Shown: positions 4,026 to 20,081 of the stretch, piece after piece
Position numbering within the stretch: the first letter of the stretch is position 1
Layout: each line of letters opens with the position of its first letter
Virus record (IMG/VR): IMGVR_UViG_3300031857_000875
Location: 1-31,462 of that record
Strand: one strand, 5' to 3'
DNA from: a virus
Length of the DNA: 31,462 nt
Position numbers and translations under genes: made by a program
Notes under the pieces: model-generated
What the model was told of the DNA's origin: nothing
What the model saw: the letters and a program-made list of their open reading frames with translations, nothing else
Database searches by the model: none

Positions 4026-4034
4026 TTATGCACA
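4026..4034 (+). promoter_or_regulatory. DnaA box (TTATGCACA)
   Basis: This is an exact match to the TTATNCACA DnaA-box consensus, located between the leftward promoter and the repressor gene. A one-mismatch copy lies on the other strand at 4255-4263, and two-mismatch copies at 4431-4439 and 4439-4447. It could be read by host DnaA or by the phage protein with a DnaA-like C-terminal segment. Confidence 0.45.
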
Positions 4035-4516: not shown

Positions 4517-4738
4517 ATGAACCTTCGTGAATGGCGCCTGCGCCAAAAGATGACCCTGTCCGAAATGGGCCGCCGCATAGGTCGGTCCCACGTCACCGTC
4601 CTGCGCTTGGAGCGCGGGGAAAACAAACCCGACACCGCAACGCTGCAAGCGATATTTGCTGCCACAAATGGCGAGGTATCGCTGCACGACTTCTTTGCGG
4701 CTGACGGCACGCCAAAGACAATTCAAGCAGCGGAATAG
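4517..4738 (+). CDS. Cro-like XRE-family regulator
   Basis: This gene encodes 73 residues, almost entirely a helix-turn-helix domain: MNLREWRLRQKMTLSEMGRRIG, then RSHVTVLRLERGENKPDTATLQAIFAATNG. It closes with EVSLHDFFAADG, an ending typical of small Cro/YdaS-type phage regulators. It is divergent from the repressor and is the first gene of the rightward operon, as expected for Cro. Only GAGG two bases before the ATG could serve as a ribosome site, which is too close for normal use. Leaderless initiation is therefore considered. It likely competes with the repressor for the operators at 4452-4509 and 4009-4023. Confidence 0.75.
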   Translation: MNLREWRLRQKMTLSEMGRRIGRSHVTVLRLERGENKPDTATLQAIFAATNGEVSLHDFFAADGTPKTIQAAE

Positions 4739-4745
4739 TCCAACC

Positions 4746-5264
4746 ATGAACAAGCCCGCCCGTCTTTGCGATTCAGCAAATTTACCAGTTGATCATGAAG
4801 ACACGGCCACGACTGCGTGGCGTGAGGGCGTGCCTGAAAGCCGGATCTGGAACGCGCGCAAATGCGGGGACAGTATCATTCGCACGCCCGCACGCGGCAC
4901 GCGCGACCTCGTCGATGAAATTCTCTGGTGGCACAACGCGCTGAACGGCACGGAACTGACGCGCGAAAGCATCATGGCGCGAACGCGCGAGGTGACCATC
5001 GTCAACGCACGCGGCGACGTTATGAAGCGGCTGCGCGAGGTGAAGGGTTGGTCCTACCCGCGCATCGGCACCTTCTTCGGGGGCATGGACCATACGTCAG
5101 TGATGAACATGGTGCGACGCCCGACCATGTACATCCACGGAACCATAAAGCTGGCGCGGGTCAACCGCGCGGCGAAGCGTAAGGCGGGGCCCAACGAAAG
5201 GAAAGCCAATGACAAAGCGACCATGGAAGCCAGTCAACCAGCTTCCCAAGCCGACATGGTTTAG
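4746..5264 (+). CDS. Protein with DnaA domain-IV-like DNA-binding segment
   Basis: This gene encodes 172 residues. Residues about 67-127 match the DnaA C-terminal domain: LTRESIMARTREVTIVNARG, DVMKRLREVKGWSYPRIGTF, then FGGMDHTSVMNMVRR. In DnaA the latter loop is usually FGGRDHTTV and reads the DnaA box. Here Arg is replaced by Met but Asp-His-Thr are kept. There is no AAA+ ATPase domain. The N-terminal 60 residues are unassigned, and the C-terminus is basic (RAAKRKAGPNERK). The ATG at 4746 is preferred to one at 4656, which lies inside the cro-like gene. The protein may bind DnaA boxes such as 4026-4034, either to direct phage replication or to compete with host DnaA. Confidence 0.75.
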   Translation: MNKPARLCDSANLPVDHEDTATTAWREGVPESRIWNARKCGDSIIRTPARGTRDLVDEILWWHNALNGTELTRESIMARTREVTIVNARGDVMKRLREVKGWSYPRIGTFFGGMDHTSVMNMVRRPTMYIHGTIKLARVNRAAKRKAGPNERKANDKATMEASQPASQADMV

Positions 5265-7098: not shown

Positions 7099-7582
7099 CT
7101 TCAGACAACAGCCGAAATTCAAGCGGGGCCGGGAAGGTGAAAAGGTCGTTGCTGGCTGGCTTATGGAGCGCGGCTGGCACGTCATCCCGAGTTATGACTA
7201 TTCCGGCGAGGATGGCGATAAGGCCCCGAAGATGACAGGAAAGCACACTGCTTTCGTGCTTCCTGATCTGGACATAGCCCAAAACGGAAAGCGCATGTGG
7301 GCAGAGGTGAAAACCAAAGCCGAGGCAACTCTGCACCGCAAAACGCAGACGCTGGAACACGGGATAAGCCTGCGCCATTTCAGAGACTACAAGCGCATTC
7401 AGGTCATCACCGGATGTGACGTGTATGTTTTTGTTTATGAAGAATGTTCGGAAAGCCTGCTTATGCGTCCCATTGGCGAAGAGTCGGATGGGCGTGTGTA
7501 CGACGGTGGAAAGATGGGGCGGGGCGGAATGATTTTCTGGCCGCGATCTTCCTTCAAGCTGGTGGCAGAGGTGCCTGCATGA
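7082..7582 (+). CDS. PD-(D/E)XK-type nuclease, putative
   Basis: This gene encodes 166 residues from a TTG at 7082. A conserved nuclease signature is visible: an early Glu in [19 protein letters not shown], then LPDLDIA at about residues 60-66 and [10 protein letters not shown] at about 72-81, fitting the Asp...Glu-x-Lys core. Later [23 protein letters not shown] resembles the end of Holliday-junction-resolvase-like or VRR-type folds. AAGGGG lies seven bases before this TTG; an in-frame TTG two codons earlier is too close to it. The gene overlaps the methylase end by 17 bases and the next gene by ATGA. Target DNA is unknown; branched replication intermediates are the obvious guess. Confidence 0.65.
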
Positions 7583-8559
7583 CCAACACCCGCCCCGAAA
7601 ACTTCATGCCCCTATGGATTGCAGACTATCTGGCAGACACCATGCACCTGACTGCCAGGCAACATGGCGCATATCTACTGCTGCTTATGTACTCATGGAA
7701 ACAGGACCGGCCGCTGCCAAAGGCGGACGCCGCGCTTCGGGCCATTGCTCGAGTTTCTGAGGACGAATGGCAGCAGGACAAGGACACTATCCTCGCTTTC
7801 TTTTACGAAGGACAGGACGGTCTACGTCAGAAGCGCCTTGAAGAAGAACGTGCCGAAGCCACGCAACGCTTTCTTGCTCTCAAGGCCAAGTCGCAACTTG
7901 GACACGAGGCGAAGGCCAGAAAGCGCATGACCCAACCCGAAGACGTGCCTAGGGCAGTGCCTGAAGCAGTGCCACAGGCAATGCCTGGGGCGTGCACAAC
8001 TCACAACTCACATATATCTAAAGATATAAAAGATATGTCCGGGTCTGCCGCCCCGGACGGCTATCCGGCTGCGTTCGAAAGTTTCTGGAAAGCCTACCCC
8101 CGCACCCAAAACATGAGCAAAACTGCGGCTTTCAAGGCGTGGCAGCGCGTGAAAAGCCACCTACCGGACTTGCCAAGCCTTCTTGGTTCCGTGGCCAAAT
8201 ACCGGGCTTTTCTGGACCGCGAAACGCAAAAACAGGGGGGCAGGGTGTACCCCGCAAAACATGCGCAGGGCTGGCTGTCCGAACGGCGCTGGGAAGGCTT
8301 CATGGCCGACGACAGGCCAGCGTCGGCGGCAACGGAACACGCCCCGGATTGGGCCGACAGCGTGCCTGAATGGCGCGACTTCAAGGCCAAGCTACCCCCG
8401 GCGCATTGGGCGCTTTGGTTCGCCACGGCGCACCCGAACGGCAGCGTGTCCACGCTGGTGGTGCCCAGCGCATTTGCGGCGCAAGAAATCGAAAAACGCT
8501 TCGGCCAACAACTGGCCCAGCACTTCGGCAACAGCTTTGAATTGAAGGTGAAGTCATGA
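7579..8559 (+). CDS. DUF1376 replication initiator/helicase-loader-like protein
   Basis: This gene encodes 326 residues in three parts. Residues 1-110 match DUF1376: MPLWIADYLADTMHLTARQH, GAYLLLLMYSW, then LPKADAALRAIARVSEDEWQ. Residues 120-155 are a linker with the repeat VPRA-VPEA-VPQA-MPGA; its DNA forms the candidate origin. Residues 165-242 (SFWKAYPRTQNMSKTAAFKAW, then HAQGWLSERRWEGF) match the common C-terminal region of phage replication proteins. The last 65 residues (EWRDFKAKLPPAHWALWFAT, then LVVPSAFAAQEIEKRFGQQL) resemble the DnaA N-terminal helicase-contact domain. It probably opens the origin and loads host DnaB. No phage helicase or primase is in the window. The start at 7579 overlaps the previous stop by ATGA. 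Confidence 0.8.
   Translation: MTNTRPENFMPLWIADYLADTMHLTARQHGAYLLLLMYSWKQDRPLPKADAALRAIARVSEDEWQQDKDTILAFFYEGQDGLRQKRLEEERAEATQRFLALKAKSQLGHEAKARKRMTQPEDVPRAVPEAVPQAMPGACTTHNSHISKDIKDMSGSAAPDGYPAAFESFWKAYPRTQNMSKTAAFKAWQRVKSHLPDLPSLLGSVAKYRAFLDRETQKQGGRVYPAKHAQGWLSERRWEGFMADDRPASAATEHAPDWADSVPEWRDFKAKLPPAHWALWFATAHPNGSVSTLVVPSAFAAQEIEKRFGQQLAQHFGNSFELKVKS
7942..8036 (+). other. Candidate replication origin: four 12-bp iterons plus AT-rich region
   Basis: Inside the initiator gene, four head-to-tail 12-base units start at 7942, 7954, 7966 and 7978 with core GTGCC-N5-GCA or a close variant. They are followed by CACAACT twice (7995-8001, 8002-8008) and a very AT-rich stretch (8011-8036) with AAAGATAT twice (8020-8027, 8029-8036). 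Iterons followed by an easily melted region in the linker of the initiator gene is the lambda O-gene origin layout. Confidence 0.55.
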
Positions 8560-19412: not shown

Positions 19413-20081
19413 ATGACGCTTCTCACGCTGCTTGGACCGCAGGCAGCGGGAAGCGATATCAACGGCACGCTGTCGAAGACCTTGGGGGCGGTGACGCTTT
19501 CGGGTTCCGGCACGCTGGCCAATGGCCTGACGGGCACGCTGACGGCCACGCTGGGCACGGCCACGCTGTCAGCCTCGGGCACCTTGGCTGCGGGCCTGAC
19601 CGGCACGCTGTCAAAGACCTTGGGCACGCTGACCCTTGTGTCAGACGGCACGCTGACGGGCGGCGGGCTATCGGGAAGCCTGTCGGCCACGCTTGGGCTT
19701 TTGACGCTATCGGCCACGGGCACGCTGTCGGGCACGCCGGTTGACGAAGGCGGCTCCAAGGGGGGCTTCGACCCTTACGCCTACAAGCGCCGGAACAAGC
19801 GGCGGGACAAGATTGAAGACGTTCGCCAGTTCATGGCGGACATTCTGGGGCGCGACCTTGAAGACGCACCGCCGGAGATTATCGAACAGGCTGAAGAAGC
19901 CAAGCAGGCCGCACGCGAAGTGCTGGCCCTTGCGCCGACCGGCCTTGATACCGACGCCCGCGCCGCATTGGTGCAGGCATTGGACGAAATCAACGAATTT
20001 TATCGGCTCGTTCGTGAACGTGTGCGCCTGGCGCGCGAAGCGGACGAAGACGAAGACGAAGAATTGCTGTTGCTGCACTAG
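19413..20081 (+). CDS. Structural protein with four GTL repeats
   Basis: This gene encodes 222 residues. Residues 18-110 consist of four 23- or 24-residue repeats (GTLSKTLGAVTLSGSGTL and variants), which should form regular beta-strand turns. Residues 115-222 switch to a charged helical region: YAYKRRNKRRDKIEDVRQFM, PPEIIEQAEEAKQAAREVL, and an acidic end (EADEDEDEELLLLH). The sharp change suggests a fibre-like or surface head and a separate helical part. The start ATG has no strong ribosome site. The gene is followed by an 86-bp gap before the scaffold gene. A role in the head or a scaffold partner is inferred by position only. Confidence 0.65.
   Translation: MTLLTLLGPQAAGSDINGTLSKTLGAVTLSGSGTLANGLTGTLTATLGTATLSASGTLAAGLTGTLSKTLGTLTLVSDGTLTGGGLSGSLSATLGLLTLSATGTLSGTPVDEGGSKGGFDPYAYKRRNKRRDKIEDVRQFMADILGRDLEDAPPEIIEQAEEAKQAAREVLALAPTGLDTDARAALVQALDEINEFYRLVRERVRLAREADEDEDEELLLLH
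19464..19742 (+). repeat. Four tandem 23-24-codon GTL repeats
   Basis: Units cover residues 18-40, 41-63, 64-87 and 88-110, with the common core G-T/S-L-x-x-T-L-G-x-x-T-L followed by G-T-L. DNA shares ACGCTG-rich stretches (GGCACGCTG recurs many times). Change in copy number would keep the frame. Confidence 0.85.

Follow-up and report, generated by a model that had tools for sequence, protein, structure and literature searches.

Positions 7945-8038 of the window (the whole stretch of 31,462 nucleotides that was analysed) very probably form an origin of replication that lies within its own initiator's gene, following the plan of lambda O and ori-lambda but with an initiator from a different protein family, and this reading includes the mechanism proposed below. 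The composite element is real, recurs across the DUF1376 family and is conserved as DNA; from it we infer that DUF1376 binds the iterons, that the strands open, that the helicase is loaded and that replication starts there. A lambda-type origin within the initiator gene had been proposed in the original prediction, and the family comparison described here supports it, with a spacing about half that of lambda. The gene that holds the element, and the parts of its product, are as follows.

7579..8559, + strand: CDS of a putative replication initiator of 326 aa, with DUF1376, a disordered linker, a FWKAYP-type domain and a DnaA-domain-I/DciA-like C-terminus
7600..7848, + strand: DUF1376 (PF07120) winged helix, presumed iteron binder (Pfam, AlphaFold, structural matches)
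8065..8313, + strand: FWKAYP-type helical domain, common to PHROG replication initiation proteins (AlphaFold)
8347..8550, + strand: DnaA domain-I/DciA-like C-terminal domain, presumed helicase contact (PF11638, structural matches)

The window protein belongs to PF07120, scoring 72.7 bits against a curated cut-off of 30.1 (E 3e-20, Pfam), and its PHROG links are to primosomal proteins and to proteins of replication initiation. Its match to PF11638 (DnaA_N) is weak, at E 0.0019 for the window protein and 2.5e-4 for that of its nearest relative, L003, both under the curated cut-off. AlphaFold predicts the DUF1376 part as a confident winged helix (pLDDT ~97), the FWKAYP domain as helical and the C-terminal domain as a-a-b-b-a-b, and it predicts a disordered linker at residues ~121-160, which coincides exactly with the DNA element. 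In structural comparison (VIA-align), the DUF1376 part comes closest to the winged helix of ORC2 (Z 6.7) and to plasmid RepA initiators (Z 5.2-5.5), and the C-terminal domain to DnaA domain I (Z 5.3-5.4) and DciA (Z 4.5-4.8); since every Z is below 8 and the Foldseek E-values exceed 0.04, this fold evidence is supportive but short of proof. The architecture of winged helix, disordered linker and DnaA-I/DciA-like C-terminus is thus one supported at the level of structure prediction. A search of solved structures by sequence with the window protein returned no relative.

In L004 (DUF6291), the region similar to window residues 121-261 shows the FWKAYP domain attached to another N-terminal domain, and the L004 linker likewise carries short AT-rich repeats (QDKDKEK), which suggests domain swapping around intragenic origins. 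In the DUF1376 genes L175 and L226 the linker/C-terminal region (residues ~120-200) is HNH endonuclease-like by the Cys/His pattern of the translation, and looks as if a homing-type nuclease had been placed at the origin. An ORF of the window itself (4656-5264) encodes a helix-turn-helix of the DnaA domain-IV kind (PF08299, E 1e-9); judged by eye, a similar ORF lies immediately upstream of the DUF1376 gene in L014, and in Rhizobium phage RHph_N28_2 a DnaA-like gene (PF08299) lies immediately downstream of it. Together with the DnaA-I-like C-terminus of the initiator, these PF08299 ORFs hint at a split DnaA-like arrangement.

The DNA element within the linker is made up of the following features.

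7945..7992, + strand: four 12-bp units, GTGCCTAGGGCA / GTGCCTGAAGCA / GTGCCACAGGCA / ATGCCTGGGGCG, starting at 7945, 7957, 7969 and 7981
7952..7962, unstranded: dyad iteron 1, GGGCAGTGCCT, 9.0 bits in a site model built from other phages
7964..7974, unstranded: dyad iteron 2, AAGCAGTGCCA, 9.9 bits in the site model
7976..7986, unstranded: dyad iteron 3, AGGCAATGCCT, a perfect palindrome, 13.2 bits, top site of the whole window
7995..8012, + strand: G-free heptamer array, CACAACTCACAACTCACA, a string that recurs in the DUF1376 genes L003, L011, L014 and L035
7995..8031, + strand: 37-nt run identical to L003, the longest identical run of the gene
8010..8038, + strand: AT-rich stretch that holds AAAGATAT twice (8020-8027, 8029-8036), a presumed unwinding element
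8013..8028, - strand: inverted repeat TATATC-TAAA-GATATA, bottom strand TATATC(TTTA)GATATA, with a weak fold of -1.3 kcal/mol

The four 12-base units exist and encode VPRA, VPEA, VPQA and MPGA, as had been predicted, but they start 3 bases later than the predicted 7942, 7954, 7966 and 7978. The CACAACT units said to follow the iterons are indeed present (2.6 copies), as are the two copies of AAAGATAT, and the predicted AT-rich 26 bases are the most AT-rich of the window, where the 26-mers starting at 8010-8013 reach 85% AT against a mean of 40%. Lag-12 identity in 7945-7992 is 0.69, a value matched at one other place, 732-736 (7 of ~31,400 windows scanned). A second repeat of 12-bp period (GATAGCGGGCCG) is found at 732-768, inside a probable non-gene ORF, and a 69-nt tandem repeat of 2.4 copies at 19463-19628, in a late structural region. 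A better register for the iterons is given by the 11-bp dyad RRGCARTGCCW at 7952, 7964 and 7976. With the window and L003 left out of its training, the site model placed its top match over all 31 kb at 7976, with 7964 and 7952 as neighbours, and its best cluster at 7945-7952. The inverted repeat at 8013-8028 is absent from the original prediction; this hairpin is short, AT-only except for its closing pair, and weak, so that AT-rich opening would outweigh the hairpin in this phage. GC skew, which had been expected to mark an origin at about 8.0 kb, has no turning point there and lends the origin reading no support.

The product of L003 is 67% identical to that of the window gene. Within 7995-8031 the two genes have the same codon at 12 of 12 degenerate positions, against 111 of 190 elsewhere (chance ~0.002). 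Contrary to the expectation that relatives would keep the iteron bases, the exact iteron letters are lost even in this nearest relative, whose iterons are degenerate, whereas its heptamer and AT-rich part are 100% identical. An exact search of IMG/VR with CACAACTCACAACTCA gave 33 stretches, among them copies of the window's phage and of L003, and three more matches lie at the same place inside distant DUF1376 genes (L011, L014 and L035). The CACAACT string is therefore found in five DUF1376 genes in two frames, and because L035 reads it as TQLTTHN instead of TTHNSH, it is the DNA that is kept and not the peptide. An exact search for CACAACT in bacterial genomes matched at least 117 stretches, which we regard as noise because tblastn found no confident relative of the window protein among the matches listed. 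A 33-nt query against a phage collection gave chance-level matches only, and a DUF1376 search in five bacterial genomes gave no match; as its control matched nothing either, that search carries no information.

We then compared the linkers of a family set assembled from four scans and from named phages (332 genes, 166 clusters at 70% identity). In this comparison, which had been proposed as a check, the arrangement recurs in related DUF1376 genes: the linker of 129 of the 166 clusters holds a G-poor array whose units are 6 or 7 nt long (none was detected in the other 37), with 11-12 bp iterons upstream of it and AT-richer, often hairpin-bearing DNA downstream. The units include TTCACC, ACAACC, TCACAA, CCAGAA, ACAGAT and CACAACT. 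Under one rule for both, arrays were found in 72% of the first 97 clusters and in 1 of 144 neighbouring ORFs. The linker holds an array of this kind in named phages of Pseudomonas, Azospirillum, Microcystis and Acetobacter too, and a looser one in two E. coli Rac-type genes and a Methylophilaceae phage. Lags 11 (z 16.4), 12 (z 10.5) and 23 (z 10.5) stand out for their identity in the 72 nt upstream of the array, while the lags beside them fall below background; the z values count related genes as independent and are thus strong but not exact. Matched sites lie 11, 12 or 22-24 bp apart with 2 exceptions in 75, their commonest core across the family is GCAATGC, and palindromes of 5+1+5 are enriched ~7-fold upstream of arrays. 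In the 40 nt after the array the A+T content exceeds that of the remaining gene by 9 points (p 2e-17). The window has all the parts by which we define a DUF1376-type intragenic origin, namely 11-12 bp iterons, a G-poor 6/7-nt array and AT-rich/hairpin DNA. A TTCACTTCGTTCAGA-like stretch (peptide SSLRSE/D), which resembles an imperfect hairpin, was also seen after the array in several unrelated phages (L325, L328, L329, L324 and L207).

A repeat in coding DNA may also reflect its protein, and the linker could be a flexible, low-complexity Pro/Ser/Ala-rich hinge whose repeated peptide gives rise to the DNA pattern. The linker is predicted to be disordered and many arrays encode SP, QP, PE or TD repeats, as would suit a hinge, but neither iteron period, 11 or 23, is divisible by 3, two reading frames are in use for the heptamer and likewise for an AACCAC hexamer, and the arrays show an extreme preference among synonymous codons: TCA serves for Ser in 150 of 166 cases (90%, against 17% outside), GAA for Glu in 17 of 17 and GAT for Asp in 14 of 14. 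With the degenerate codons shared between the window and L003 added to these points, the hinge explanation appears very improbable, and the earlier proposal that the repeat is shaped by the DNA and not by the protein is borne out. Iteron similarity tracks the N-terminal domain (r 0.51), and the correlation with the C-terminal domain is 0.03 after allowing for the N-terminal one. Since a control stretch of ordinary N-terminal coding DNA correlates with the N-terminus as well as the iterons do, this significant co-variation is confounded by linkage and we do not use it as proof.

Hairpins are concentrated past the array. Within 60 nt of it, 23 of 71 genes have one whose stem is at least 7, compared with 0.9% for control windows and 1.7% for shuffles. 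Hairpins whose stem is at least 6 reach, in the larger set, 5.5 per kb after the array against 0.67. Single-linkage clustering of hairpins at 45% identity put nearly all of them into one group and yielded no usable number of independent cases. Their loops are distinctive: TAAA makes up 14 of 42 tetraloops (0 of 209 in controls) and TNNC 18 of 42 (9 of 209), TNC makes up 11 of 17 triloops (10 of 189), and the loop is closed by C-G in 45 of 59 cases against 120 of 398 in controls. On the bottom strand these loops read TTTA, GNNA and GNA. GNNA and TTTA are compact DNA loops. C-G-closed GNA loops form very stable DNA mini-hairpins, according to the passage of PMC6479982 that cites Yoshizawa 1997 and Hirao 1994. 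The opposite loop orientation is not enriched after arrays. Hairpins that follow the bottom-strand rule occur at 4.1 per kb after arrays and at 0.04 elsewhere in the same genes; the rule emerged from these data, which are also part of the larger set used for the count, so that it needs a fresh set.

Dyad iterons are also typical of operators, and many replication initiators repress their own gene as well. The element could thus be an autoregulatory operator, an RNA element whose hairpin acts in the mRNA (attenuation, translation or RNA stability), or both, and the strong hairpin enrichment past the array would fit such a role. The site, however, lies ~370 nt into the gene, the window has no second standout cluster of dyad sites, and AT-richness is expected of an origin and not of an operator. 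The loops match compact loops of bottom-strand DNA (GNA, GNNA, TTTA), although the mRNA reading (TNC, TNNC, TAAA) fits the data equally. We consider this explanation improbable. Direct repeats and hairpins also mark recombination, packaging and partition sites, one of which might by chance have come to lie in an initiator gene, but in phages whose hosts are unlike the element goes together with the DUF1376 gene, always in the linker, and it shows no apparent tie to terminase or integrase genes, which makes such a site the least probable of the alternatives, and extremely so.

On the favoured reading as an intragenic origin, DUF1376 winged-helix domains, probably as dimers, would bind the three dyad iterons of 11 bp (7952, 7964 and 7976), spaced by 12 bp, and the resulting complex would strain and then open the AT-rich DNA at 8010-8038. 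Lying between the two, the G-free CACAACT array may either be exposed first as single strand or serve as a spacer of fixed register, and the FWKAYP and DnaA-domain-I-like C-terminal parts would recruit the host DnaB to the bubble. It is possible, though less likely than not, that the DUF1376 phages have a distinct class of origin, in which dimers stack on 11-bp dyads, the array is strand-specific and a mini-hairpin serves the helicase or primase. Initiator dimers seated on dyads every 11-12 bp might then continue along the G-poor 6/7-nt array, which could act as a strand-specific single-strand element with a role comparable to that of DnaA-trios, while the bottom-strand C(GNA)G, C(GNNA)G or C(TTTA)G mini-hairpin might be a site of helicase or primase loading or priming.

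The closest known parallel is ori-lambda, which lies inside gene O between the DNA-binding and helicase-contact parts and in which an AT-rich region comes after tandem iterons of dyad symmetry (PMC6022878). The window likewise has tandem dyads (7952, 7964, 7976) inside the initiator linker with AT-rich DNA (8010-8038) after them, but here the array intervenes. The DUF1376 gene also takes the place of O in the early operon, before the DnaC-like counterpart of P; in Rac-like prophages and Pseudomonas phages its upstream neighbours are cro/cII-like genes and the gene downstream is DnaC-like. Lambda differs in its iterons, which are 18 bp long with a period of 20-24 bp, whereas the dyads of the window and the family are 11 bp long and come every 11-12 bp. 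The lambda record has no C/A-rich 6/7-nt array such as the G-poor one of the window, and the strand-specific hairpin rule is an extra of the DUF1376 family. Phage_rep_O, which represents lambda O homology, has no match in the window protein, where Pfam detects DUF1376 and the weak DnaA_N only. The window element works like ori-lambda but is not a lambda O system, as no homology to O was detected and its iteron spacing is not that of lambda.

YdaU of the E. coli Rac prophage shares the DUF1376 N-terminal family, and the K-12 ydaU linker shows periods of 23, 12 and 11 and GATACAGATAAAGAT; the Rac-SA53 protein differs in ending in DnaT (PF17948), where the window protein has a DnaA-I-like end. 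Rac is said to carry an active origin, oriJ (PMC3945230), whose position relative to ydaU was not found in the database records and literature searched. Bacterial oriC contains DnaA-trios and a DnaD recognition element (PMC10201434), and resembles the window in that double-strand binding sites adjoin, next to the DNA that melts, an element that is strand-specific and of short period; the structure matches of the window protein include both DnaD and DnaA domain I. It differs in that the array units of the window are 6-7 nt and no AAA+ initiator is present. An origin based on DnaA boxes was rejected, since the whole window has one match to TTWTNCACA, at 4026, against 1.48 expected by chance, and no cluster. 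Plasmid RepA proteins (pdb 4pql, 4pt7, 5kbj) are winged-helix iteron binders that match the DUF1376 part structurally (Z 4.8-5.5), but no sequence similarity to them was found, and their length and domain set are different.

No description of DUF1376 in connection with an origin of replication was found in the literature searched, which covered mostly journals outside subscription, and earlier work may exist. DUF1376 is a domain of unknown function found in very many phages and prophages, including Rac of E. coli K-12, and the sequence comparisons point to a likely job for it as an iteron-binding initiator. The sequence by itself would then show where the origin lies in many uncultured phages. 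The comparisons also indicate that such origins have two more elements, namely a hairpin that is strand-specific and the G-poor array.
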